A DNA stretch of 64,000 nt. It comes from Tubulanus polymorphus. Taxonomy: Eukaryota > Nemertea > Palaeonemertea > Tubulaniformes > Tubulanidae. How positions within the stretch are numbered: the stretch's first letter is position 1; each line of letters begins with the position of its first letter. The position numbers and the translations under genes are program-made. A model generated the notes under the pieces. The model saw nothing but the letters and a program-made list of their open reading frames with translations. It searched no databases and was not told the origin of the DNA. Shown piece by piece: positions 3,701 to 63,395 of the stretch. Location: NCBI RefSeq assembly GCF_964204645.1, contig NC_134029.1:9538850-9602849 (forward strand), in the 5' to 3' direction.

Positions 3701-5741
3701 CCGTTATCGCTGCTTTGCGGCTATGTTGTTTAAAGGTCACTGGTATGTTGTCATTGAGGTCACAAGTCATAGCACATCGTGCATAGCCTACACGTTTGGT
3801 ATTTAATGTTTTCATTTATCACAATCAATGAAAAGAGGATGGACAACCTATTATATCAAGTTATAAGAGAATAACTAGTAATATTGTAATGTTTTGATGT
3901 TGCATGTTTTTTCTGTAGCGGTGCAGAAAACTCATTATCGCTACTTTGCAGCTATTGTTGATACTATTTCTATTGTTTTTTTTTCAGTGATAACAACCGA
4001 TAAAACGAATATACTGTTGAGATACCTTCATCAGCAGTGGGATAAAAAGGTAAACATCGATTGGCCTACAATTCAAGTAAAAGCAATGCTATTGTGTTCA
4101 CTTCTCGCAATAATAAATGGAATCTAGTTATTTTGGGAAGTTTTCAACAACTTCGATATCTTGATATTTGGTTTATGGTAACAGGTAAAAATCCCCCATC
4201 AAAATATGGTAAAAATCCCCCATTTCAGTTTTTTTAATCGAATTAGTGTTATTGGTAGTACAAATCAAACTTGAATGAACTGATAATTATAACCTTTACC
4301 ATGAAGGTTATGTTTGTTTCGCAAGCAAAACTTTGTCAGTTAGCAAAATAACTTCTTGTATGGCTTGCTGTGAAATTTTTAGAATTTCTCAACGCATCAG
4401 CAAGTGCCCTTAAAATCAAGATAAATTCCTCTTGATTGAAAATAATTCCAATGACCACTTAATTAGCCAGAGGTTTATATCTACAATTTAAATGGATGAA
4501 ATCATTAAACTTGAATCAAAATATTTTCGCTAGAGCTGCTTATTCCTATTATTGCAGTGATCTCATTTTATAGGTAATTGAAGGAATAACTGTCATCTAG
4601 AGTGTATAAGTGCCATGATTAAAATCATACAATCTTGTTCATAATCGATGAGAGAATATTGATACATTTTTTTGCGAAATTCAACTTTGGAGGACTTTTA
4701 CCTATGGGGGATATTTAAAAGAGGGATTTTACCTTCATTCTTGGTTGATGTATATTTTCATAGACTGAGTACCAAACTTATCCCTAGGGATAAATCTTCA
4801 ATCTGCGTGACAACCACCATAGTTAAGTAACAATAAGAAACCATGGTTATAACTGACAAATGTCAAAATATTCCTAGGGGATTGTTTTGCTTCCATATCT
4901 ATGAAACCCAGCCCTGGGTTGTTACAGGTCAGGGATTTGTTTTTCTCTGCAATGAAAACCAGAGAATTCTGAGGTAATTTTTATTCTGAACATTTTTATA
5001 CAGAAACCAATGATCAGGTAACTCCGCACACATTATTAGAAAATGTTATGAGCACAACTTTGCGCTCGCTTGTGGTGACAAATGAAGCCTCACCAATATA
5101 TGCAGTAGACTTGGTTACCGGTTTGTAGAAGCATGTACTAACAATAACTTCCCTGATTTTCAAGTAGTTGGTCACTAATATCTTCAGCAAACCTGCAATC
5201 GCAGAATGAACATTGCCCTACACACTTGCATATCCTTATGATAAGGCCCTGCCACACTTGCATGTCCTTATAAATAGGATATGCACGTGTGCAGGCCAAT
5301 GTTCATTCTGCGATTGCAGGTTTGCTGAAGATATTGGTGACCAACCACTTGAAAATCAGGGAATTTGAATAGAGCTCTGTCATTTTTCTGAAGCTTTGTA
5401 TTTTAGAAAGTTCTCGTGTGAGAGAATTGTATAGTTTGTCACCAATATCTTCTGCAAAAACTGCAATCGCAGAATGAACATTGCACTGCAACCGGCCCCT
5501 GATTATCTAGAATTTAAAGTCTGCGTGTCCCCGGACCCCTATTTTTTAAAATGGGTCTTCTTCAAAATAAGGTTTTTTTTAAGTCTGAAAAAATTCGAAT
5601 TACATTTCAATTCAATTTTTCTTTTCTCCCTAGAATTTACACAAAAAGCGTGACTGTAACCGTGCTGAATTGGACCCATCAACTGAACAGACACCATCGA
5701 GTAAAGTTCGACGCTTGACTAGCACTGATGATCAGAACTGA
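659..5741 (+). CDS. DDA1: DDA1, DET1- and DDB1-associated protein 1 (gene span, 5' end incomplete)
   Basis: Four coding exons join in phase: 659-739, 1991-2042, 3988-4049 and 5634-5741 (TGA at 5739-5741). They give 100 residues against 102 in human DDA1, so only about two N-terminal residues are missing. Conserved blocks are [46 protein letters not shown] and a basic-then-acidic tail (KKRD ... TSTDDQN). All introns are GT-AG. In animals DDA1 binds DDB1 and is a core accessory subunit of DDB1-CUL4 E3 ligases (the DET1-DDB1-DDA1 module), helping recruit E2 enzymes and substrates; that role comes from family knowledge. No ATG ending in frame before a donor was found in 1-658, so the start exon is probably off the left edge. 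USE1 follows 97 bp downstream on the same strand. Confidence 0.95.
740..1990 (+). other. DDA1 intron
   Basis: A GT-AG intron of 1251 bp. Nothing recognisable is seen in it. Confidence 0.85.
1991..2042 (+). CDS. DDA1: DDA1 coding exon (RPSVY block)
   Basis: The acceptor is ATTTACAG and the donor GTTTGT starts at 2043. The 52-nt exon starts in phase 0 and leaves one base over. It encodes [17 protein letters not shown], matching the human RRPSVYLPTREYPSEQ block that lies along DDB1. Confidence 0.94.
2043..3987 (+). other. DDA1 intron with repeat fragments
   Basis: A GT-AG intron of 1945 bp. It holds a short copy of the GGGATCATTCATTTATT repeat end (2547-2575), a decayed tRNA-like stretch (about 3316-3405) and two direct copies of a dispersed motif (3693-3725 and 3919-3955). 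Confidence 0.8.
3316..3405 (+). repeat. Decayed tRNA-derived sequence (possible SINE head)
   Basis: The segment GAGCATTTGACTCGTAGTC resembles the D-stem/anticodon part of a tRNA, followed about 35 nt later by CAGTTTGAGTGTCGGGTA, a worn B-box and T-arm. Acceptor stem pairing is lost and no tail is seen, so it is not a functional tRNA gene. Confidence 0.4.
3988..4049 (+). CDS. DDA1: DDA1 coding exon ([12 protein letters not shown] helix)
   Basis: The polypyrimidine acceptor TTTTTTTTCAG ends at 3987 and the donor GTAAAC starts at 4050. The 62-nt exon takes the one base carried from the previous exon and ends in phase 0. It encodes [20 protein letters not shown] plus a final Lys. The [15 protein letters not shown] stretch is identical to human DDA1 and is the most diagnostic part of the protein. 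Confidence 0.97.
4184..4733. mobile_element. MITE-like element with doubled termini
   Basis: The left end reads GGTAAAAATCCCCCATC and repeats as GGTAAAAATCCCCCATT 24 bp later. The right end, on the other strand, begins GGTAAAATCCCTC and has a second inward copy (CCCCCATAGGTAAAAG). About 550 bp with inverted ends and no coding capacity suggests a non-autonomous DNA transposon. No clear target-site duplication was seen. Confidence 0.55.
5151..5361. repeat. Foldback sequence with arms of about 65-88 nt
   Basis: The left arm 5151-5215 (CCCTGATTTTCAAGT ... AATGAACATTG) pairs with 5297-5361 on the opposite strand with only two differences. Weaker pairing continues inward to about 5238/5276. The loop holds another copy of the CACACTTGCATRTCCTTA word. 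Confidence 0.85.
5436..5485 (+). repeat. Direct third copy of the foldback arm
   Basis: GTCACCAATATCTTCTGCAA ... CTGCAATCGCAGAATGAACA repeats the left arm of the 5151-5361 foldback in the same orientation with a few changes. Confidence 0.8.
5634..5741 (+). CDS. DDA1: DDA1 terminal coding exon
   Basis: The acceptor CTCCCTAG ends at 5633. The 108-nt exon encodes 35 residues and a TGA stop, starting [19 protein letters not shown]. The basic KKR patch followed by an acidic/Ser-Thr tail fits the human C-terminus. There is no AATAAA or ATTAAA between the stop and the next gene; only a weak AATATA variant occurs near 5754. Confidence 0.94.
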   Translation, partial: NLHKKRDCNRAELDPSTEQTPSSKVRRLTSTDDQN

Positions 5742-6609: not shown

Positions 6610-6875
6610 TAGCAGCACTGTCATGCAAGATAGGTTTACTATATTGATGTGTTACAGATCTTTTTAAAGCGGTGAATGATTCTATAGCTTTTCAATTTTG
6701 GGTGGTGAATTGATGATATATTCTTTTTGGGTGCTTAGATTTTGAAGGACTAGAATGATGGTGGTTGTGTGGTATATTTTTGCCATGTGGAAATTACTTA
6801 AACTGATGAACTCAAGCCCATTTGTACAGTCAAATCCAATTAATCCGGATTTTCATTAATGTCGCGTAGACTCCA

Positions 6876-6881: not shown

Positions 6882-9775
6882 GCGTGACAATTTGAACTGT
6901 GAAATTTTTATTTTTTATGTTATGCATGATATATTACAGTAAACCAACCCCCCACTTAAGTGAATATACGCGTCATATCCGATCAACTTGGATAACCGTT
7001 CAACTCAGATGTTTTTTGAAATATTATTATGACACTTTATATGAAATACATTACTTCTGACTCTGATATCACTCAAGTTGGACACATGTGTACGGTCCCA
7101 GTGATCCGATTTAAGCAAAGTCTACTGTATATGAATGATGTAAATCAGTGTAAATGCAGAACCTTGTCGAACTCAGACATGGCCAATTCGTTTCGACAAA
7201 ATTAAAATCATTTTCTGACTAAGGCGCGTTGGAAGCAATTTTTGATTGCTGCGGCCAAATACTGATTTTCGACTGGTTCTAAATATTGCTGCAGCGAATT
7301 TAGTTAAAAACTCTTCAAAAACGTGGTATTCAAAGAAAACAATGTCATTTAGTAAATTATGTTGCCACAGCTTTCGCCGCTGCAGTAGCTGCACTTCCAA
7401 CGCCACAGTGACTGTCTTACGTATTATTCGATCCTAAGCTTTGCAATATTTCCTGTCCCATTGTTTGAGTTAAGGTGGGCATAGGTCGACTTGTGACACA
7501 ATCGCTTGCAATTGGTAATAAATGGATGCATTGGTCGACGTTTGCTGTGCAAAACACACTGCAAAGCCTGTTAGTCTGATCTTTTTGGAAGAGGGATTTG
7601 TGTCGGACTAAGTGAATATCTGACGTAGGAAACATATTTCATACTGCAAGTATAGAAATGGTCCAAAACGTTCAATACTGGTTTGCCTCTTCGTGCAGAA
7701 ATTCAGCTTAAAAGATCCAACTTAAGCAGGCTTGACTTTGATTGGTTCGCAGTGCCGTGTGCATTGAGCTTTACGAATAACCTCTTGATTGACATGTTCA
7801 CTGCCATACCGGAAGTTGTATACAGCTAACTATACCGGTGCGTGTTTGTAATTCATTTTGATGCTAAAAGTATCTCTACGTATTTCTGACATCATTCTTA
7901 TCGATTTAGGGAAAACCCACATCATGGAAATACATGTATGTGTGTTTGGCACTTGAGATGTACTCATCATTTCTATTAATTGCCGCAGTATCACCTAAAA
8001 CCTACATACATGGCATTACCAGGTGTGCCAAGTGCTTTAAAAATGCATTGATAACCGACTACCGGTACTGGTAGCATTTGGTACACTTTGTATATATACA
8101 TAGCTAATATATGAAAAGAACAGGTTATTATTCCATGAGTCATGGATCACAGCTTGAAAATGTTACCTCCAAAGCTCAGAGGTACATGAACATTAATTCC
8201 TAGCCTTTCCTCAAAATACCAGAATTATTGTTGCCAGGGTATAATATTGGGTATAGATTGATAATGAGAGTTTATTGATTTCGGTACAGTGTTGTTCATT
8301 TTAATGCTGCGCCATAAAGTCATATCCTGACCAGGATACTTGAAATTATCCTATTTGAAATGAAGGTCATATTTAACTCATAAAAATAGTTAGCGTTAGA
8401 CCTCTCTGGTTATACAAACTTTGAACCAGTGACCCATTAATATTAAACATTTGATAACAATGATTTACGCCAAGCTTAGTTTTGAATTATGTGATTTGTT
8501 GGTAAATGTAGATTACATTGAATTTTTTGGCATTTACATTGAATTTCTTGGAATCATTGGGATGAGTTAAACATAACTTAAGAGTAAAATGATACATTCA
8601 TCTGACATCTTCATGAACTGACGCATTGTTCCCAAATAGCCTTGGACACACTACAATTTTGTCTCGGCCAAATGTTGGTCATGGTAAGATAAGCAAAATA
8701 TTTTTAGCGCGTTTGAATCAGAAAAATGAAAATTCGGCATCACAACTGGATGGACTAGCCAAATTGATTAGTGCAAATGATTCGTTTAGTGTGTCTGAGG
8801 CTTTATTGAGATATGACATTGATGGCATTGCAAAACTGCCATTGGGTGTAAACCCATAGTTGTAGACTGGGTGTGCAGGTATTCACCGGAGTAACTGCTT
8901 AACTAATCATCTGAGGATGGGTTTGAATCCTTGCATGGGATTTATAAGAACATATAACATGTCATTTTTCGTTCTACGTATCATACTGAAATAGTGGATA
9001 TTTTTCGCTTGGCTATATTTTTATATTTAGGCCAGAGTGTGTGTGTACACTACGCCTAAGTATTAAGAAAAAATTACATGTACATGTAATAATCATTAAT
9101 GAAATGAAATTCATGTATTAAGTTAAAGATATTACACTTAATAAACGCATTCATTGAATTATGATCTTCTTCATCTATGTTTTATATTCAATATGTTCAA
9201 CAGATTGTGACAGAGCTAAGTGTGTTGACATCGATTAAGATTTTACATAGGCCTATCCGCTAACTTCAGATTAGATGGAAATAAGTTTAAACTAGGAATA
9301 GGACCTTTCTTTTATGATAAAACTCGACTCTACTCAGAGGATTTGAAAACTAATTCAGTGTACCGAAAATACTAACTGATCAGATCAAAATCTAGATTGA
9401 GTCGATTTTAATGTACATTGTGTATGAATATGCAACAGAGCAGCAATAATAGGTTTTCTGTACATCTGTGGCATATACATGGGGGACATTTGCACGCAAG
9501 AAAACAAAGAAATTCATGATTTCACAGCCATATTATGGATGATTCGCACTTCATGCATTCATGAAAATTGTTGGTAGAAAAAAAGATGCATTAAAGTAGT
9601 AACACTCCAAACCATTACAATTGACGCAAATGAATGGCAACTACGTAGCCGTATATTCGGACTGACCAAATGAAGCTCGAATCCCCGTCCTGATCAATTT
9701 GTTGCTTGCCAAGAAATTCATCATTCAGGGAAAATACATTGTATACCAATAGATTCATGAATCGTGCAGATTTTT

Positions 9776-20083: not shown

Positions 20084-20750
20084 GGTCCAGGGACACCATG
20101 CCCACTTGGAAAGTGGTTTCAAATGCTCAACAATCTAACAATTTCAATATTCAACGCCCCTGGTGACCATATACAAAAACCAATGACTTTGAAACTCACC
20201 AAAATCAAAGAACATGTTAGCAGCTACGATTTTGTAATTGATTGTGATAACAAAATATGCCTCGTTACTAATCTAATAAGGAAATGCTAAGTTATTCTAC
20301 TATTTAACGCCCCCTGGTGACCATATGCAAAACCCAATGACCTTGAAACTCACCACAATCATAGAACCACAATGTCATGAACTACAACTTTGCAATTGAT
20401 CATGGTAACAAAATATGCCTTGGTACCAATCTAATAGGGAAATACTAAGTTATTCTACTATTCAACACCCCCTGGTGACCATATAGAATAACTAATGTAC
20501 TTAAAACTCACCAGATGATGATGTCATGAGCTACAACTTTGCAATTGATTGTGGTAACAAAATATGCATAGGTACAAATATAATATAGAAATACTAAGTT
20601 ATTGTATTATTCAACGCCCCTGGTGGCCATATACAAAAGCCAATGAATTTGAAACTCACCACAATCATAGAACACGTTATGAGCAACAACTTTCCAATCC
20701 ATTGTGGTAACACAATATGCTTAGGTATCAATATAATGTGGAAAAACTTT
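20084..20750 (+). repeat. Tandem array of about 155-bp units (pearl/Helitron-like core)
   Basis: Four units start near 20151, 20303, 20462 and 20611, each beginning CAACGCCCCCTGGTG with small changes and containing TTGAAACTCACC, CAACTTTGCAATTGAT and ACTAAGTTATT. The array is preceded by GGGGTCCAGGGACACCATG. Bivalve 'pearl' elements have a tandem core of this unit size (family knowledge); assignment is by resemblance. Confidence 0.8.
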
Positions 20751-52200: not shown

Positions 52201-55200
52201 ACTAATCCGTAAATACTATGCTTCTTTTCCTTTGAGTAGTATCTGCTATTAGCCCATAAAATTATTTCTTGGGAAAGGATTGTGCTTGGTGGCTATCATC
52301 ACTTTACTATGAACTCACAACATATATGTACAAAGAAACACCAGCTCCGAATATTTCATAAAAATGCAGCAAGAGCTCAAAAAAGCTGTATATCATATTG
52401 AAGAATATACAAAAAGATGTATTAAAGTAGTTACAGTGCAATCTTAGTTGATATGCAGCATGGATATAATCGCTATGTTACATTGGTGGCTGTTATAAGA
52501 CATTATTCATATAATTTCAATATGGCCAAAGACTATCCACGAAAATGCAAAGCTTTGGATATACAGGGTGTCTTAGAAAATGTGTTAGATAAGACCTTTT
52601 TTGGGACGGTTGAATCTTGGAGCAAATATATTCTAACATCAAAATGTTTACTCCAAGCATCACCCGATCAAGTGTCAACCGACTAAGATTACACATATGT
52701 TAAGATAATAGATAATTTATATAGGCCTATTTCCACAAAAAGTGGTGGAATAATATTGTAATAATCTGATTCATTTATCAAGATGACAAATTTCTCTTTC
52801 TTATTCTACCATAAATAAATCTGACGGATAGGTAAATATGTAAATAATAAATGTGGCGTGTATTATGCATGTATAAATGTATAAACAGAATGTGCAAATA
52901 TTCGGAGCTGGCATTGACCCTTGAACGTTGTTTCTTGACAATATGTCTTACATCTGCGGAAATGGCTGTTTTTCCCGTCAAGTTGGCTGACCTCACCCGT
53001 GACCTCTATTTTCATCATACCTGTGCTGATTCGGCGAGGTTTCTCAGCCTGGGGCTTTATCAGAAACCGATTGTCTGGAGGACTTAAACTGAATGCAACC
53101 CCTGTTGGTGGGCTGGTTGCACCAAACTCATCATTTGAACTAGTTTGGAATGCATGAGCCCTGAAAATAGACAGTTATTCTCAGCATTTGAAGGATTCAA
53201 TTCACCACATTGAACCTAAATTTAATAATTATCCTCATTATATGGCTTCAATAGTACGTATCAATGGTTCAACCATATGTCATGTTCAAACATGACAAAA
53301 CAAATACATTATTACATTTGAAACGAAGGCATTTTTTGTTCAGGTAATTTGTGATCAACATTCAGGTAAATGCACAGGTTCCTGTTACATACCTTCATTG
53401 GGGCTACCTTGCCCCACCAGAAGCGAGCTGCTCTCATTTGGTGTTAACCAGAATTCAAATACAGTGGTAGTAATATGATTTCAATTGTTACCATGGCCAT
53501 ATGAACACAGCAGTTTACTATTAACAGACTTTGAGCAAATGGCCTCTTCAAAAGACTGTGGTTATGGCGAAATTGATTTATCATAGACCATGAATACAAA
53601 CTACATAACCATTTTGTATAGAATAGTTAGCTTTTTTGTTATGATATTGCTTATTTACTGTGAAGAGGTGCGCATTTCTATATCTTCAGTAATTTTCATA
53701 ACCTGGATTTCCTGCATTGAGACTATCTTGGTGGATCAGAATGGCAGTAAGAGCGTATGTTGACCCATTTATGAAAGCAGGAATTGAAAAATACAAAACA
53801 GCTTCTGGTGACCATGACCTTTGACCTAGAGGACCGGAAATCTAATCAGTTACCCACAGTCTCTAGGATAACTCATCCATCAAATTTCACCTAGTTACTT
53901 TAAAGGGTTCATTAGTTAGAGCCGGAAATGAAAAACACAAAACAGCATTGGGTAACCTCATCTAGTACAACATAATTGTTGAATATCAGGAGAATCTGTC
54001 AAAGGGTTTAGGTGATAGGACACAGAAACCACTGCGGACAGACAGACGGAAAGTGAACGCAATAGCCACTTAAGTTGCAAGTGGGCTAAAAATGTACACG
54101 TGGCACTATTTTAAACGCTGTCTTACTTATGCAATATTTAATCAACCAAGAAACAAAAATTTACCATATACGAACTCAACCTTCTGTATTTCATATTCAA
54201 GAAGCTGCGAAAGTTTCAGAACCGTATGTTGCATTAAATGGATGTAATCGTTTGATGTGACATGTACTACGTACAGTCATCCTGAAGACCTGATCCAAAA
54301 TGACTACTTTCTGAAGGCAACAATGCTTGTCAGTTAGCTAATATCAGTAGAGATGTATCTACTACCATTTTTTTGGAAAAGATGTATGTTGATTTGACTG
54401 CTAAAACCAGTCCATTCGATCAACTTCTATTAACTCTTCTATCAACTAATTCCCTAAAAAACTTCGAAAATGTGTAAAAAGTACTGATTTTGGTTAACAA
54501 CGTTCACCATTTTCATCACGCCAGTTTTTGGGCTGTTGATGTGTCTTGAATGGATAGATGTTCGAACCTAATATCAACACTATCTTCAAAACTTCCCAAA
54601 CATTAGGATTCCATCTACAGATAGCAAACGGACAACAAACAAACTGCGAAAGCAATAGCCCCTATGTGGGCTAAATAGGTTAAATAGTTTTTTTTGCATT
54701 CCACAGGTAATACTGCTACCCCCAGTATCCTCAAGCTTCGTCAATGGTATGATATGTCAGTGAAGGAATTGTCATGATTGGCTATCAAAAAAATTCGCAA
54801 CACCTACTTAATCTAATAATTCATGGTTAATCAGTTGTGTGAGCCTAGTTCCCCTGGAACCTAATATTCAAAAGGGCACAACCTATGATATTTTGGTCTT
54901 GCATATACTTACGGCATTGAAATAGTACTGTATCGTTTATTATCAAGGTTTCCATGGTATTCCGGATTGATAACGACTCGCCTCAATGCCTCGAGAACCA
55001 TACGACCAGTTGTGAACACTCGGTATGTTAACAGGAATGTATTTAAGAAATCAATACTCAGAAAACGGAGATCAGTGAGTCGATCTAACAAACGATCAAC
55101 TGATGCATGACGAATCTGAAAAAGAATTGAACTCATTATCATCATATGGTCAACTACATTGTTGAATCATGAGTTCAAATGCCTTTGTTTGACAAGTCAG

Positions 55201-58200: not shown

Positions 58201-61200
58201 CAGCAGCCATAGGCCGACTTGCAACCCTATTGGTTGCAACTCCGATGCGTCCGTCAAGTAAGGGTGTGCGAATAATCTCTATTAGTCAAAAAAGCAGCGT
58301 CGGTTGCCACTAGGAGAGATGTCTGTGCGACACGATTGTCGAAATAATTGTACTGGATTTGATGGACATATTTCTATATCATCACTCCACAGCGTAATGT
58401 TAACAAAACAAAACTTGGCTGAAAAATGTTTCATGAAAAAAAATTCAAATAGGCTTTGGTTTGAATGATTCAAATTCTAGTGATCATCAACAAAAAGCAG
58501 CTGGATCGAAACAACTCAGGTACAACTGTGGATCTTTATAGGGGGATGAATATTCAGCCCTTGCAAGGGAGGATGTCGCCGTATATTATATATAAATGAT
58601 GATATAAAAATGCACTGTATGCTCTTTCTAAAAGAAGACAAGGAGCTCCTGTAACTAACAAGGACAACAGTACTGCACATTGACAGACTCACCACAGTTG
58701 GTTGCTGTACACACTGAACCTGTTTGGAAAACAGTGCAATCAGATCAGACAATGTGAAAATCAAGCGACACAATAACAGCAACAATACACAAAACAGCAC
58801 TACAATTGTCTTAGTTTATAAACTCTCCACAAATGGTATGTATGATATATGTATGTTGCATGTGGTTATCTTCTGATTGAAGTTCTTGTTTATAATCTTA
58901 AGACGACCACATTAACCGATCAGAAGAGTTGAATATGTTATGAGAGTTTTTTTTTCAATCATGTGGCATTGCAGTGTGTTTGAGTACGTAGCTGTTTCAG
59001 TGGCTGAGGTGAAAGGTACTGTAAGCAGTGAAAGGGTCAACGAAACAATATTAATGCAGGAATCCACGTAAAAGTGGTTTGGCTCCTTAAGTTGATGGTT
59101 CTTATTCAGCAAGGATAATTCTAAAAATATAATTTTGTTCTGATAATCAGCATGTTCGATGAAGTGATTGTATTAAGAGTGTATTCCAACATGTACATAC
59201 GTTAATACAGCATACTATCATATACATGTTAATGTATGTTAAAATATTGTAGTATATACAAATCTACAATAAGTATTCAAACATGTACAGGTATTATACA
59301 AGCCAAAGTAAATGTAGTGTGCAAACATGTTCATAAAGTTAACTGCCATAACATGTTGTATACAAACATGTGCATGCAGTATGCAAACATGAATGTGAAG
59401 TATGCAAATATAGACATTTAGTATCCAAGCATGTACACGCAGTACCGGTATACTGCCACAACATATTCATGTAGTACATAAAAGCGTGAATACAGTATAG
59501 TGTCATAAGATATGCATGTACATGTTCATTAGTATGCTGCAATAAAACATGTTATGCATATTCTATGCTAGCCTGTACATGTAGTCTACAAAAACATTTA
59601 TGGGCAGTATATCAACATGTGTACACAAATACACTAACTTACGTATGTATGCATACATGAAATGTACATAATATACATTCCGTTCTAGAGTATTTACTGG
59701 TATATGAAACCAGGGAGGTTTCACTCCCACCTCCCTGATGTAACATACAAATGTACATGAAGTCTATAAGAAACATGTAACATATTACGCAAATACTTGC
59801 AAATGCTGATATTATTCAATTTCATTTCAGACCAACAAATATTTTGATTTCTTAAATTTTTGGTTTCATTGCACGATTAGGTCACCCTTTCAGTTGAACA
59901 GTCAGACAAAAACATGTTTTTGTGAACTAGAAATTGCATGCAATCGAGGGGACATTCCAGCGTTACTTTGATCCTGACAATGCGCAATAGTGAGAATAAA
60001 ATGCGACGTGACTCTTGTATAACCACTTTCATAAAATATCAATGATGTAGCTGAATTCTGTAAGGTGAATGAAATGATGCCAAGTTTATTATGTTGGAAT
60101 GTGGTTCTGTTCCAAATTTGCAGCCTTAATATTCCTCTTCTATTTATCATGATGGTAATACCTTCATATAGGTTCTTGAAAGTCTTTGTCTTATTATGAA
60201 GGTATTACCATCATGATAAATAGAAGAGGAATATTAAGGTTGCAAATTTGGAACAGAACCACATTCCAACCTAATAAACTTGGCATCATCTGCTTCCACA
60301 TACAGGTTCTTAAAAGTCTTTGTCTTATTATGTGGAAGCAGATGGTAGGCAGGAAAAAATCTATTATCCATTGACATTTGACAAAAGTGGTTGGCAGTTT
60401 TTAGTTATGCCAAAAAAAGCGTTTTTAATCATAATGAAAAACCATGCCTGACACACACAGGTTGCGCAATCGTGGACAAGTTCTAGACGAATACAAGATG
60501 AAGACAGGGATATCTTGGGAGACAAGATCATGAGCAATCCTGATAGAAATACGCCAAAAAATTTAATAAAGATATATCAAGGATAAACAATTGGTTAAAA
60601 ACGTTATGAGGGTAGTACTGAATGTAGGTGCGCAGGCATAGGTCATTGAATGGTTTGGGTATATTTGGTTTGGCACTTGTAGAGTTTTGAATGATTTTAG
60701 CATTAGTTACCTTCGATGATTCATTGACCTACCTCACTGACTGTGGCATCGTCACAGATGATGTATCACTCATCGATGTATTCAGTAAATCACTGTAGTG
60801 CAGATTCTCAATACACTACAAACATTCAGAAATAAGCTTTTTGACAAATCCCCAAATCAGGCTAGATCCTCAGAGAAAACTATGATTCATTATTCAGTAT
60901 TATTCGGTATTCATCAGTACAATTTTCACCTAGTAGAAATCTTTTGTCATATCTTTATTGCAAAATCCACAATTTCTCAAACACATAAACAACACAATAC
61001 ATCAACTAAGTGGATTTAACCAGTCTCAAAAAGCCAAGAAGTACTACATCTTTATATATAATCTAAATTGAAATCATAGCGATAACTTTTATTCAGACGC
61101 TAGAGATATATAAACAATGTAAAATTCGCTGGCTACAGCAGTCAGTGGTCTTCAAGACATTTAAGTGATTTAAAAGTAAACGCCCCTAAAGGTTATTGGC

Positions 61201-61494
61201 CAATGGGACCAATGACTCAGTTGAGAGAGTCAGTCCGTACCATGTTCTACTTACCTGACTGATATCGCTACACCATGCTGCCTTTTCTTGTAGCGTTGAA
61301 GCGACCAATGTGATTGTGACTGGCGGTCCACTTTTTGTATCGACTATAATCCGGAAGTCGAGGCCATTGTAGTCGATGCTTGATCGATGTTCACATGACT
61401 GCGTCGATAGGAGGTTCGCCTGTGAGCCGGCACTCATACTGGAATCTATGGAGCACGCTGGAATAAGAGTGGGGGTTCGGGAATACACGTGACA
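24904..61494 (-). CDS. RASGRF: RASGRF1/2-type Ras guanine-nucleotide-releasing factor (gene span, N-terminus off window)
   Basis: Eighteen minus-strand exons join in phase, read from high to low coordinate: 61494-61255, 60815-60733, 55498-55423, 55115-54913, 53160-53021, 48681-48592, 48198-47413, 42317-42188, 37662-37562, 37472-37363, 37253-37071, 33603-33506, 31744-31660, 30732-30535, 30286-30207, 25789-25672, 25583-25515, 25056-24904 (TAG). They give about 980 residues: end of PH2, REM/RasGEF_N, a Ser/Pro linker of more than 350 residues, and a complete CDC25 domain ([46 protein letters not shown]). The order is that of vertebrate RASGRF1/2, which are Ca2+/calmodulin-responsive exchange factors for Ras (CDC25) and Rac (DH). 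The PH1, coiled-coil, IQ and DH exons are not seen and should lie beyond 64000. Mollusc-like genomes probably have a single ancestral copy, so RASGRF1 versus RASGRF2 cannot be assigned. Confidence 0.95.
25515..25583 (-). CDS. RASGRF: RASGRF exon: CDC25 domain, [10 protein letters not shown] helix
   Basis: The acceptor is ATTTTAG and the donor GTTAGT. The 69-nt exon (23 codons, phase 0) encodes [20 protein letters not shown] then HSR, matching human ISHIIREIRQFQQTAYKIEH. Confidence 0.97.
25672..25789 (-). CDS. RASGRF: RASGRF exon: CDC25 domain, [11 protein letters not shown] block
   Basis: The acceptor is ATTGTAG and the donor GTAAGA. The 118-nt exon encodes [20 protein letters not shown] then [19 protein letters not shown], almost identical to vertebrate RASGRF and including the SCR3 signature. 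Confidence 0.98.
26030..26630. mobile_element. TA-flanked DNA element, CCGTATTTTCCGGC termini
   Basis: The left end CCGTATTTTCCGGCCAATAA and its exact complement at the right end (TTATTGGCCGGAAAATACGG) are both flanked by TA. Inner inverted words CGGCTTATTGGGCG lie near 26090 and 26550. It is 601 bp and non-coding, so a non-autonomous element of a TA-target superfamily. Confidence 0.85.
27555..27960 (+). repeat. Tandem repeat of about 110-145 bp units
   Basis: Three diverged units share ATGCATCAAGAATTGCAGG, AAATTCAAGATGGC and GGCAGCCA(T/C)ATTTGA. These AAGATGGCYGCC-type repeats are common in molluscs. A GAGGCCCACGGGCC word precedes the array at 27371. Confidence 0.65.
29100..29830. other. 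Unassigned higher-complexity segment inside a RASGRF intron
   Basis: Base composition is more balanced than the surrounding intron and there are several interrupted open frames on both strands. No transposase or reverse-transcriptase motif was recognised. It may be a decayed retroelement or pseudogene. Confidence 0.3.
30207..30286 (-). CDS. RASGRF: RASGRF exon: CDC25 domain, [10 protein letters not shown]
   Basis: The acceptor is TTTTCCAG and the donor GTAATA. The 80-nt exon encodes [20 protein letters not shown] then MRDALH, matching human [26 protein letters not shown]. In related Ras-bound structures this region precedes the helical hairpin. Confidence 0.97.
30535..30732 (-). CDS. RASGRF: RASGRF exon: CDC25 catalytic core
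   Basis: The 198-nt exon (66 codons, phase 0) contains [20 protein letters not shown] then NYNGVLQI, the most conserved RasGEF core (R-x-x-x-I-E-K-W, ADICRC-HNYN), and ends [13 protein letters not shown]. The acceptor is ATGTTAG and the donor GTATTT. All core residues expected for an active Ras exchanger appear present. Confidence 0.98.
30733..31659 (-). other. RASGRF intron
   Basis: A GT-AG intron of 927 bp. It contains a short word shared with about 18405 (CTTCATTCTCATTGCTCATT-like, near 31370) and nothing else recognised. Confidence 0.8.
31660..31744 (-). CDS. RASGRF: RASGRF exon: CDC25 domain, SCR1-SCR2 region
   Basis: The acceptor is TTTTGTAG and the donor GTAAGT. The 85-nt exon encodes [20 protein letters not shown] then LVSKRFNE, aligned with human [29 protein letters not shown]. 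Confidence 0.95.
31745..33505 (-). other. RASGRF intron with composite repeat pieces
   Basis: A 1761-bp intron. A weak GTATTCATTTATTACATACA repeat end lies near 31795, and composite-repeat words occur at 32460-32530 (GGGGTCCAGGGATGCTGTGC) and 32752-33060. Confidence 0.75.
32752..32947 (+). mobile_element. Diverged composite repeat copy
   Basis: It contains AAACTGGTGCTGTCTAGGAT, TGTCTTCAAAACTTCCCAAC and ACAGACAAACAGAC, then AAGTCAACACAATAGCCTGC and AAGTCGGCTGAA. The terminal hairpin has been disrupted by a duplication of CTGCTGCGACNGTTC. Confidence 0.6.
33506..33603 (-). CDS. RASGRF: RASGRF exon: start of CDC25 (RasGEF) domain
   Basis: The acceptor is TTTTTTTCAG and the donor GTAAGT. The 98-nt exon encodes [20 protein letters not shown] then [12 protein letters not shown], the first helix of the catalytic domain (human SALEIAEQLTLLDHLVFKKI). 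Confidence 0.96.
33604..37070 (-). other. RASGRF intron, 3.5 kb
   Basis: It contains a piggyBac-derived element (35515-36464) and a lone GCTAATGGGTTAA terminus at about 33987-33998. The rest is AT-rich with no supported feature. Confidence 0.8.
35515..36464 (+). mobile_element. piggyBac-type element with broken transposase start
   Basis: It is flanked by TTAA on both sides (35511-35514 and 36465-36468). The termini CCCTTACAATACCAC and the complementary GTGGTATTGAAAGGG form an imperfect inverted repeat. From 35665 an ORF beginning [18 protein letters not shown] continues into an acidic Ser/Asp stretch ([13 protein letters not shown]) and stops near 35819. This is the kind of N-terminus seen in piggyBac transposases; the catalytic part is missing, so the element is non-autonomous. 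Confidence 0.85.
37071..37253 (-). CDS. RASGRF: RASGRF exon: helical segment before CDC25 domain
   Basis: The 183-nt exon (61 codons, phase 0) begins [20 protein letters not shown] and contains [13 protein letters not shown], matching human QDFETNDELKCKVIGFLEEV ... QERKAAANIIRTL. The acceptor is TTCTAG and the donor GTAAGT. Confidence 0.97.
37363..37472 (-). CDS. RASGRF: RASGRF exon: [14 protein letters not shown] segment
   Basis: The acceptor is TCTATTAG and the donor GTAAGT. The 110-nt exon encodes [20 protein letters not shown] then [16 protein letters not shown]. This aligns with vertebrate [25 protein letters not shown], the helical segment that completes the REM module. Confidence 0.97.
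37562..37662 (-). CDS. RASGRF: RASGRF exon carrying the conserved [11 protein letters not shown] motif
   Basis: The acceptor is TTTATCAG and the donor GTCAGT. The 101-nt exon encodes [20 protein letters not shown] then [25 protein letters not shown] matches the vertebrate RASGRF AASAFAIATAGA, a small island of conservation inside an otherwise diverged linker. Confidence 0.95.
37663..42187 (-). other. RASGRF intron, 4.5 kb
   Basis: It contains a 285-bp TTAA-flanked element (40112-40396) and AT-rich sequence with trinucleotide runs (about 41028-41090). Long open frames at 37959-38381 and 37995-38261 lie on opposite strands of the same AT-rich stretch and are not supported. Confidence 0.75.
40112..40396. 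mobile_element. TTAA-flanked MITE, CCCTTTCAGTGC termini
   Basis: TTAA at 40108-40111 and 40397-40400 flank CCCTTTCAGTGC and its perfect complement GCACTGAAAGGG. Internal words ACACCGC(A/G)CTGCGGTGTA are also self-complementary. It is 285 bp, non-coding, and piggyBac-type by target site and CCC start. Confidence 0.85.
42188..42317 (-). CDS. RASGRF: RASGRF exon: linker
   Basis: The acceptor is TTTTTTAG and the donor GTACGT. The 130-nt exon encodes [20 protein letters not shown] then [20 protein letters not shown]. It is low-complexity and in frame with both neighbours. It has no recognised domain; support comes from phase and splice sites. Confidence 0.85.
43265..43298 (-). repeat. Dispersed GCAGAAAACCCGTTATYGCTG motif, one copy
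   Basis: On the minus strand it reads GTGCAGAAAACCCGTTATTG then CTGCTTTGCAGCTAT, matching 3693-3725, 3919-3955 and (minus strand) 9432-9462. Confidence 0.7.
43322..43560 (+). pseudogene. Dead non-LTR retrotransposon reverse-transcriptase fragment
   Basis: The translation contains [18 protein letters not shown] and WLSSYL followed by stop codons and a frameshift before a GVTQG-like word. These match the FDKVxHxxLLxKL, WLxSYL and GVPQG spacing of LINE reverse transcriptases. It is inactivated by in-frame stops and at least one indel. Confidence 0.7.
43600..44130. repeat. Degenerate GTTCGAACGAAAA repeat
   Basis: The words TTGTTCGAACGAAAAA, TTCTGTTCGATTGAACG and GACAAGAAAATTCTGTTC recur many times over about 530 bp with irregular spacing. 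It is an old minisatellite; TTCGAA-centred self-complementary words make it hairpin-prone. Confidence 0.75.
45556..45586. repeat. (AAT)n microsatellite
   Basis: About ten AAT units. A short hairpin AGGGTTTTCTGT / ACAGAAAACCCT lies just downstream at 45608-45637. Confidence 0.95.
46215..46284. repeat. (AT)n microsatellite
   Basis: About 35 TA dinucleotides in a RASGRF intron. Confidence 0.98.
47413..48198 (-). CDS. RASGRF: RASGRF large exon: Ser/Pro-rich disordered linker
   Basis: This 786-nt exon (262 codons, phase 1 to 1) has acceptor ATTTCAG and donor GTAAGT. It begins [20 protein letters not shown] and is rich in Ser, Pro and Thr, with many SP sites: [25 protein letters not shown]-like repeats and a basic patch near the end ([11 protein letters not shown]). 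It lies where vertebrate RASGRFs have a phosphorylated, PEST-like linker. No folded domain is visible; proline-directed kinase regulation is inferred. Confidence 0.93.
48592..48681 (-). CDS. RASGRF: RASGRF exon: basic Ser-rich linker
   Basis: The acceptor is TATTTCTAG and the donor GTAAAT. The 90-nt exon is phase 1 to phase 1 and encodes [20 protein letters not shown] then [15 protein letters not shown] resembles the human RRRKLSL segment at the same place. A second donor 6 nt upstream (GTTTGG) would remove two residues without changing frame. Confidence 0.82.
48682..53020 (-). other. RASGRF intron, 4.3 kb
   Basis: No exon was recognised. A minus-strand open frame at 49567-49929 ([20 protein letters not shown] ...) has balanced composition and may be a decayed repeat, but no family could be named. 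Confidence 0.65.
53021..53160 (-). CDS. RASGRF: RASGRF exon: start of linker after REM
   Basis: The acceptor is ATTTTCAG and the donor GTATGA. The 140-nt exon stays open in the carried frame and encodes [20 protein letters not shown] then [20 protein letters not shown]. Similarity to vertebrate RASGRF is weak here, so the call rests on splice sites, phase and position. Confidence 0.8.
53790..54088 (+). repeat. Composite repeat copy, variant body
   Basis: GACCATGACCTTTGACCTAG and TCACCTAGTTACTTTAAAGG are followed by GGACAGACAGACGGAAAGTG and the shared terminus GCAAGTGGGCTAA. It shares the 3' end but not the body of 22769-23038. Confidence 0.6.
54471..54675 (+). mobile_element. Composite repeat copy
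   Basis: AAAATGTGTAAAAAGTACTG, CCAGTTTTTGGGCTGTTGAT and CTTCAAAACTTCCCAAACAT, ending ATGTGGGCTAA, follow the same order as 22769-23038. Confidence 0.65.
54913..55115 (-). CDS. RASGRF: RASGRF exon: REM (RasGEF_N) domain core
   Basis: The 203-nt exon begins [20 protein letters not shown] and continues [20 protein letters not shown]. This is the RasGEF_N signature that braces the catalytic helical hairpin in SOS and RASGRF. The donor is GTAAGT. The segment after VFTT is more diverged than the helices. Confidence 0.97.
55423..55498 (-). CDS. RASGRF: RASGRF exon before REM
   Basis: The acceptor is ATTGCAG and the donor GTATTG. The 76-nt exon encodes [20 protein letters not shown] then CKVPQ, matching human RASGRF SDASLYCDDVDIRFSKTMNSCKV. 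Phase is 2 in and 0 out. Confidence 0.95.
56882..57360. mobile_element. TTAA-flanked element, CCCTTAGGAACCTG termini
   Basis: TTAA at 56878-56881 and 57361-57364 flank CCCTTAGGAACCTG and its exact complement CAGGTTCCTAAGGG. The interior has two copies of a perfect palindrome-like word (CTCTCGCAAATTTGCGAGAG at 56896-56915; a shorter one at 56943-56960). Near 57220-57280 the reading [12 protein letters not shown] recalls the acidic N-terminus of piggyBac transposases. Non-autonomous, 479 bp. Confidence 0.85.
57736..57756. repeat. Short (AT)n run
   Basis: About ten TA dinucleotides. Confidence 0.95.
59160..59780. repeat. Degenerate ACATGTAC minisatellite-like stretch
   Basis: The words AACATGTACAT, GCAAACATG, GTAGT(A/C)TG and ATACAAACATG recur about every 25-35 bp over 0.6 kb with heavy divergence. 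It is rich in self-complementary ACATGT. Confidence 0.7.
60074..60344. repeat. Twin adjoining hairpins with a shared loop
   Basis: Hairpin 1: arms 60074-60168 and 60195-60289 match over 95 nt with two differences; loop 60169-60194. Hairpin 2: arms 60287-60302 and 60329-60344 match 16/16; loop 60303-60328. The stems are unrelated in sequence, but both loops are 26 nt, read YAGGTTCTTRAAAGTCTTTG then TCTTAT, and differ at only two positions. Both loops are bordered by CATA and TATG. Confidence 0.95.
60733..60815 (-). CDS. RASGRF: RASGRF exon linking PH2 to REM
   Basis: The acceptor is TTTGTAG and the donor GTAGGT. The 83-nt exon starts in phase 0 and leaves two bases. It encodes [20 protein letters not shown] then VTMPQSV, matching human CVDNIRCNGLM ... 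SKVTVPQMI. It exactly fills the phase gap between the PH2 exon and the next exon. Confidence 0.9.
60816..61254 (-). other. RASGRF intron
   Basis: A GT-AG intron of 439 bp. No recognised feature. Confidence 0.85.
61255..61494 (-). CDS. RASGRF: RASGRF exon: C-terminal half of the second PH domain
   Basis: The donor GTAAGT follows DISQ at 61255. The exon encodes [20 protein letters not shown] followed by [20 protein letters not shown], the last strands and C-terminal helix (with the invariant Trp) of RASGRF PH2. The stretch [10 protein letters not shown] aligns loosely with the human SLIDCTLLE. The 5' boundary is uncertain: 61494 (after CTACAG, phase 0) is the choice here; 61507 (after ATTCAG) is possible. 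Confidence 0.85.
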
Positions 61495-61507
61495 CTGTAG
61501 TGACATG

Positions 61508-63395
61508 CTGAATGCTTTGCAGAGACCTTATGTACTCTGTAACTATTAAATTTATCAGAAATCATTCTTATTCACCAATCCTAATCTACGAACAGAGCGA
61601 CTACAAAAATCTGCACTCACACATCTATTTCAACCTCAAATTTAAACAAAAACCTAACATTTTTGTATGTATATGTATAAGCCACTAAGTTATTGCAGTG
61701 TAATTTGAATTCTGCACATATTCGTGAGAATTGAAGCTGAAAATCTTTTGAGACAGTTGGTGCGTTCAATGATTGTGCCTGCAAAAATGATTGTGCCTGA
61801 TTTTTCCGCATCATCCTATCAAAACGAATGAGCCAGTGAATTCCATGCCACATATTATGTGATCTTAAATCAATAATAATAATAATGATAATAATAATAG
61901 GTGAAATGTAATAATATGAATATGATATTGTAAATATATAATTATCAGCATGTCACTCATAACAACAATGAAAGCCACCAAAGCAATTTGACTCGATGGT
62001 TTTTATAAAAATAAACTTGCGATATAGGATAATCCAGATAACTAGGTTACATTTTACTATAAGTCTAAAGAATTGTATTGTGAAACGTTTCGATATGTAA
62101 GTATATATAAGTATATGTAATTTACGACAATGCATTCAATAGTATCAAGATCAAGAGTTATACATAGTCCGAATCAGTTTAAGCAATTTTCATGTTATAC
62201 CAAGGGCCGGGAAGGTTGTAGCATTACAATGCAAGAGAATAAACAAGGGAAAATGACCATGATCAGAAACAATATAGTAAGCATGTACACTGTATGTACA
62301 TGCATGCTTCTGTCTGCACCAGTCAGTCTGTGTCAATGAAACTCATTCTGACAATGATTGGAATCTACTTTACTGAATAATCAGTGAATTCTCACTACAT
62401 TTGCAGGTGAACTATGCTAACTAGTGATTTAAAATAATACAGAAAACCTCTGTTGAACAATACTTTAACATAGCGGAAACGAATACAAACCAGCCACTTT
62501 CGGTATCCTGTAAAACTTCGCTGGTTGGCATTTAGTAATTTCACTATATGCACTTACAGTACTAAATTAAGCAGTATTCTTCATACAGAGGTTTTAGTGT
62601 ATTTTGTGCAGCCATACTTAGAAGCCTACGCATATCTGACTGGTGAACACTTGAGCATTTGAATATTCAAGAAGTTTTTCAACATCTAATGACATAAAAG
62701 CTTCCATGCACTAGTTTTCCCATCATATTTCTCCTCAATAAAGCACTTTCTTAATATCAAATGTGCTCCACACCCAAGAATTTACGCCTTGTAGGTTAGT
62801 CAATCAGCAGGATATTTGTTTACATTCCCCTGTTGGGGAGTTGTTAAGTTTTTTCTTTACTTACTATCCTCCTCAAAAAAGAAGACGTCTGACGTTGAAT
62901 CTTCAACTAACGTACAATCAGCTAATGGAATTTTTCCATAATTCTGAAAATGATGATGCAAACTACATTCTCACACTGATTTCACACATCAAAATTCCAT
63001 AACTCAATATTTGATGCTACTATCATATTCTTACGTATTATACCTGTCAATTCTATGTAAAATGTTCAACAAAACATCATATTTGAAACATCAAATTTGA
63101 TCTTGGATATACTGTAAAAACCAAGTCACTATCACTTCCTTATGAAACGTATGAAGGTTGACAATCAATTTTGGTCAATAAAGAAGTTTCCAGTTTCTAG
63201 GCGCCATTTTGTGGCGGTCCCTCAAGGTTCCCATTGTTGCGATAATTTGCGTTCATTTTTAAAACATAAGTTTTGATTGAATGTCATATAGCTCTGCAGT
63301 CCCTTGCTTGATTAAATTCATTTATAGACCATTTTAAAGGAAATTAAATGCAGATATTTGCGCCAGCGATTCTTGGATTTTTTTTAACGCAACAA
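61508..63395. other. Region upstream of the visible RASGRF exons
   Basis: No DH or PH exon could be recognised on the minus strand. It contains an (AAT)n patch at 61872-61900 and AT-rich sequence. The earlier RASGRF exons are inferred to lie beyond the window. Confidence 0.5.

Follow-up and report, generated by a model that had tools for sequence, protein, structure and literature searches.

A double hairpin with one loop and two unrelated stems in the Tubulanus polymorphus genome, apparently a slightly decayed scar of microhomology-guided template switching

How can two hairpins that lie side by side come to carry nearly the same loop on stems of unrelated sequence? The question is raised by positions 60074-60344 of a 64,000-nucleotide stretch of the Tubulanus polymorphus genome, hereafter the window (C5:9538850-9602849, in the 24.9-Mb contig C5 of a 267.8-Mb assembly of 77 contigs). 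Stem 1 is paired at 93 of its 95 positions, the mismatches falling at 60092 and 60123 in the left arm, and stem 2 at all 16. Both loops are 26 nt long and identical at 24 positions; together with their CATA and TATG borders, they form 34-nt cores that agree at 32 positions, both differences lying inside the loops. The two hairpins abut, with a stem overlap of 3 nt (60287-60289). The order across the locus reads A-core-A'-B-core-B'. All of this bears out the description in an earlier note on this DNA, which had reported two adjoining hairpins with near-identical loops and unrelated stems. The parts of the locus are as follows.

60074-60168, + strand: arm A, the left arm of stem 1 (93/95 paired with 60195-60289) and left flank of the core, taken as the original; its last 4 nt, CATA, are part of the core.
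60165-60198, + strand: core copy 1 (CATA, 26-nt loop, TATG), 32/34 identical to 60299-60332.
60195-60289, - strand: arm A', an inverted copy of A; in the best parse, from a single-copy precursor with three jumps, copied from 60168 back to 60077 (92 nt).
60287-60302, - strand: arm B, an inverted copy of B' (16/16 paired with 60329-60344), parsed as 12 nt from 60344 back to 60333 and then the CATA that opens core 2; its initial CAT (3 nt) forms the junction with A'.
60299-60332, + strand: core copy 2, a direct repeat at a spacing of 134; according to the parse, re-copied after a return to CATA.
60329-60344, + strand: arm B', by pairing and parse the right flank of the core in the putative precursor, running on into the rightward DNA.
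60199-60332, + strand: the predicted net insertion of 134 bp (A', B and the second core), by simulation and parse; its removal gives the presumed empty site.

As DNA, the locus folds with a z-score of -26.5, none of 100 shuffled sequences being equally stable, and as RNA of the minus strand with a z-score of -26.3 (0 of 200 shuffles). A weak inverted pair, 60021-60044 and 60369-60392 (24 nt at 83%), flanks the double hairpin on both sides, possibly by chance.

On its minus strand, the window contains an exon for a RasGEF_N domain (54909-55166) and RasGEF pieces (C5:9569384-9569584 and C5:9564524-9564685, about 30.5-30.7 kb and 25.7-25.8 kb of the window). Beyond it to the right, again on the minus strand, comes a RhoGEF piece (C5:9618127-9618327). 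The order RhoGEF, RasGEF_N, RasGEF matches what we take to be the architecture of a RasGRF/SOS-like gene. This domain order suggests that such a gene spans the window on the minus strand and that the hairpins are probably located within the intron between its RhoGEF and RasGEF_N exons. For the open frame that covers stem 1 (59902-60204, minus strand), Pfam gave no match at an E-value of 0.01, and comparison of the minus-strand reading frames 54909-55166 and 61186-61527 with solved structures gave none at 0.001 and a single irrelevant match at 0.27. A putative minus-strand transcript would carry the 95-bp hairpin, and the locus would need no function to account for it.

To give a base rate, inverted repeats were scanned in 245,022 bases of the same genome, made up of the window, two short pieces and a further 18 of 10 kb each. 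The filter set minima of 14 nt for the arms and 90% for pairing and a maximum of 200 for the spacer, and it dropped arms of low complexity. Forty inverted repeats passed, and 60074-60344 is the sole pair within 600 bases that has similar loops of at least 10 nt. The two longest (arms of 95 and 88 nt) both fall in the window, which was picked because it holds the double hairpin and is not an unbiased part of the scan sample.

The observed sequence was parsed by dynamic programming as a succession of pieces of a precursor, read on either strand, with jumps and mismatches counted, for three precursors. The simplest of these, a single-copy A-core-B', is the present sequence minus 60199-60332. From this precursor, two jumps leave 9 mismatches and three jumps leave 4 over 531 bases, with every base assigned and only four substitutions left over. 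The three-jump path proceeds forward as far as the TATG border of the core, in reverse from 60168 to 60077, in reverse again from 60344 to 60333, and then forward once more from 60165. Solutions with four jumps (3 mismatches) and five jumps (2 mismatches) were not accepted, each further jump saving one mismatch by way of stray short pieces. When the 134-bp insert was shuffled, three jumps from the same precursor left at least 65 mismatches in all 20 trials. With a tandem duplicate as the precursor, two jumps suffice for 4 mismatches. With a precursor that already has two cores, three jumps leave 9 mismatches and four jumps leave 2, which tells against a single core; the lower count arises because both of the differing cores are taken as given. 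A simulation in which the single-copy precursor underwent the 134-bp duplication followed by an inversion reproduced 59900-60500 (601 bases) with 4 differences and no indel. A plain direct tandem duplication, with no inversion, was rejected, as it leaves 84 mismatches. Separately, the DNA to the left of A resembles B' in an extension of 111 nt at 93% that runs through the edge of core 2, a similarity judged by eye to be due to chance.

These results argue that the locus arose by local rearrangement of a single-copy A-core-B' sequence, by one route or another (a single burst of template switching, a duplication with an inversion, or a two-jump switch with a later correction), a reading to which we assign a probability of roughly 85%. 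The locus is apparently a slightly decayed scar of microhomology-guided template switching in intron-like DNA, of an ordinary kind and unusually tidy. Most likely, it was produced in a single burst of three jumps with fold-back priming, although the only segment that calls for the third jump is the 12 nt of B, two jumps already bringing the mismatches down to 9. From the sequence, we infer the precursor, the number and order of the events and the polymerase mechanism.

In the proposed sequence of events, the starting order would have been A, then the core between CATA and TATG, then B', in one intron-like stretch. A nascent strand in replication or repair synthesis, having reached TATG, would fold back on CATA, leaving a loop of 26 nt, and copy A in reverse for about 92 nt, which would create stem 1. 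Its CAT end would next land at the outer end of B', from which 12 nt would be copied in reverse to create stem 2. On arriving at CATA, the strand would switch back to the original template at the core's 5' boundary, and the core and B' would be copied again. The loop would thus be common to both hairpins because it is the re-copied segment, in the same direction each time, and the stems would be unalike because each pairs one of the two flanks with that flank's inverted copy. A fold-back of this kind, with TATG annealed to CATA and an inverted duplicate of the flank as the product, had been proposed in the earlier note; in the best parse, it corresponds to the reverse tract that comes first and is the longest. 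The further suggestion of two independent events side by side did not hold up, a single-core precursor explaining both cores and both stems with three jumps and 4 mismatches.

The junctions are compatible with this course. Both the fold-back and the return use the 4-nt CATA/TATG, and at the junction of A' and B, GAA[ATG]ATGCC and CAG[ATG]GTAGG are joined at 3 nt, ATG/CAT, into CAG[ATG]ATGCC. Among 100,000 random placements in the window, 2.4% of 100-bp inversions had microhomology of at least 4 and 6.8% of 134-bp duplications had microhomology of at least 3. The junction microhomologies are short and each is only modestly improbable. A stronger argument than microhomology is the exact abutment of the stems with all bases assigned: a single connected rearrangement would be expected to leave the stems abutting, whereas separate events would do so only by coincidence. 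The 12 bases that open B are present at only two places in the window, 60287 and, on the opposite strand, 60333, so B is templated from B' or vice versa. Of the four differences between the copies, 2 fall among the 103 arm positions outside the core and 2 among the 34 positions of the core (Fisher p = 0.26); the divergence of arms and core is compatible with a single age and one event. The event is not brand new, although gene conversion between the arms could mask a greater age.

Two other routes share the probability given above to local rearrangement. The first proceeds in two steps, a 134-bp tandem duplication at ATG and then an inversion of 100-108 bp between the cores at TATG/CATA. Duplication and micro-inversion are both ordinary types of event. 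The simulated reconstruction and the two-jump parse from a tandem precursor, each with 4 differences, fit this route, which yields a final sequence identical to that of the single burst and is, in that sense, formally equivalent to it. The assembly yielded no intact tandem copy. The inversion would have to span about 100 bp with arms of 4 bp, whereas in PMC8604942 spacer inversions go with short spacers and arms of more than 9 bp. We consider this route possible, taking up a substantial minority of the probability of local rearrangement. The second route, which takes a smaller part of that probability and which we regard as doubtful, consists of a two-jump switch that creates stem 1 and the second core, followed by a quasipalindrome correction from B' that perfects stem 2. 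From the single-copy precursor, the two jumps leave 9 mismatches, and the 5 extra ones, by eye, all fall within 60290-60302, the B segment; conversion of imperfect to perfect inverted repeats is documented in yeast in PMC8604942. The cost of this route is an extra event, where one further jump in the same event would do.

A foldback or MITE-type transposon, or a functional RNA locus with paired hairpins, could be suspected from the long near-perfect inverted repeat, the strong RNA fold and the weak outer inverted pair at 60021-60044 and 60369-60392. A whole-genome search for repeat families, in which very common words are skipped and copies may be missed, returned only self matches for the locus (441 bases) and for the 656 bases to its right and the 674 bases to its left. 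The right-hand version of the outer inverted pair has no other genome match within 3 mismatches, and Rfam gave 0 matches at the gathering score for 59000-61500. The genome search turned up no second copy of the locus, its flanks or the right-hand version of the outer repeat, and a transposon would leave the combination of two stems with one loop unexplained; we hold both possibilities to be very improbable. An artefact of assembly or library preparation is similarly improbable. Palindromes are prone to chimaeric reads, but the locus lies inside a 24.9-Mb contig and the copies differ at 4 positions, as fits decay after an old event; that the event is not brand new also argues against a read chimaera.

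The earlier note had offered a different explanation, a small mobile or self-annealing core that was inserted twice and each time rendered its flanks palindromic, and had proposed a genome-wide check for cores at the centre of palindromes with other arms, considering that the idea would fail if the core occurred only here. At up to 3 mismatches, the 34-nt core was found at 2 places in the 267.8-Mb assembly, both at this locus, in a search that is blind to stretches reading N and to more diverged copies; within that scope, the inserting core fails by the note's own standard. A 25-nt part of the core gave 2 further places with 3 mismatches, as many as the reversed control pattern (also 2), and the DNA around both (L003 and L004, about 0.5 kb each) contains no inverted repeat that passes the filter. 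Accordingly, the core looks neither mobile nor repeated. Although the fold-back step fits, the core is the part common to both hairpins and, two cores granted, four jumps leave only 2 mismatches, the mobile-core model was dropped as next to negligible in probability, given the search results and a two-core precursor that requires an additional jump without accounting for the second core.

The locus resembles several published systems and differs from each. Among them are short-range template-switch mutations, in which a local reverse-complement copy is likewise made by transient template switching (PMC7954356 and PMC8794818). PMC7954356 presents a four-point model and reports, in great apes, events in which the return point lies before the departure point; under the model, such events would duplicate the intervening DNA. 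According to PMC8794818, short-range switches can produce perfect hairpins. The locus shares the hallmark of these mutations, A' and B being inverted copies of A and B' that lie tens to hundreds of bases away. The four-point model, as presented there, has one reverse tract and two jumps, whereas the best parse here calls for a second reverse tract and a third jump, leaving 4 mismatches as against 9 with two jumps.

Small inverted triplications (SIT) are reported in PMC13334657 with a median spacer of 30, junction of 6 and inverted fragment of 160 bp. They share with the locus direct copies on either side of an inverted fragment and short spacers and junctions, the present loops being 26, the microhomology 3-4 and the tract about 100. 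In particular, the 26-nt loops and the complementary 4-nt CATA/TATG junctions compare with those medians of 30 and 6. The defining DUP/IN/DUP arrangement, as we read it, is absent: the direct copies here consist of the 34-nt core only, and the inverted tract is A' plus B. In SIT, with DUP/IN/DUP so understood, the stems agree and the loops differ, whereas here the loops agree and the stems differ.

Fold-back insertions at double-strand breaks, with a 41-nt loop, and inverted double insertions are described in PMC11724301. They resemble the locus in that a microhomology-primed hairpin forms with a loop of tens of nt and the flank is then copied; there, the product is captured by end joining at the cut, whereas here the strand would return and re-copy the core. 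Inverted-repeat spacer inversion by template switching (PMC8604942) similarly flips the segment between inverted arms, with arms of more than 9 bp and spacers of a few bases as against 4 bp and about 100 bp here. Within the open-licence literature, as far as the portions of it covered extend, no description was found of a hairpin pair that shares its loop but not its stem sequence, which is limited evidence.

In itself, the locus would be one decayed scar of low general interest. Its broader significance is that what appears to be a mobile core that makes stems can arise by local rearrangement of a single-copy sequence. The general rule is that, when a core and its two flanks are duplicated and the DNA between the cores is inverted, two hairpins with one loop and different stems result. 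The double-hairpin pattern could thus serve as a simple signature of multi-jump template switches that can be sought within a single genome, and a 95-bp intronic hairpin could arise in one or two mutational steps. It is conceivable, though in our estimate unlikely, that the locus represents a recurrent class that mirrors SIT, with a fold-back, copying of one flank and then of the other, and re-entry at the start of the loop. Members of such a class would always show a pair of abutting hairpins whose loop is common and whose stems are unrelated, would provide a readable signature of three-jump fold-back synthesis and would supply introns with paired hairpin transcripts in one step.

Other repeats were encountered in the scanned DNA. 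A second long hairpin in the window, at 5149-5490, has 88-nt arms with 5 mismatches and a spacer of 39. A third, partial copy at 5432-5490 is direct, so that direct, inverted and direct copies of about 58 nt follow one another with 51-53 identities per pair; three places elsewhere in the genome match about 48 of 361 bases of this hairpin, which may be an older small inverted triplication. A tandem array at 20148-20748 has a period of 158, 3.9 copies and 80% matches, and its unit resembles, by eye, 5000-5090, just to the left of the 5.1-kb hairpin. In one of the other scanned pieces (L019), perfect inverted repeats with a motif like TTTTGAATCGGGAGCCGAA are clustered at 6621-6752 and 8104-8244, probably as a local repeat array.
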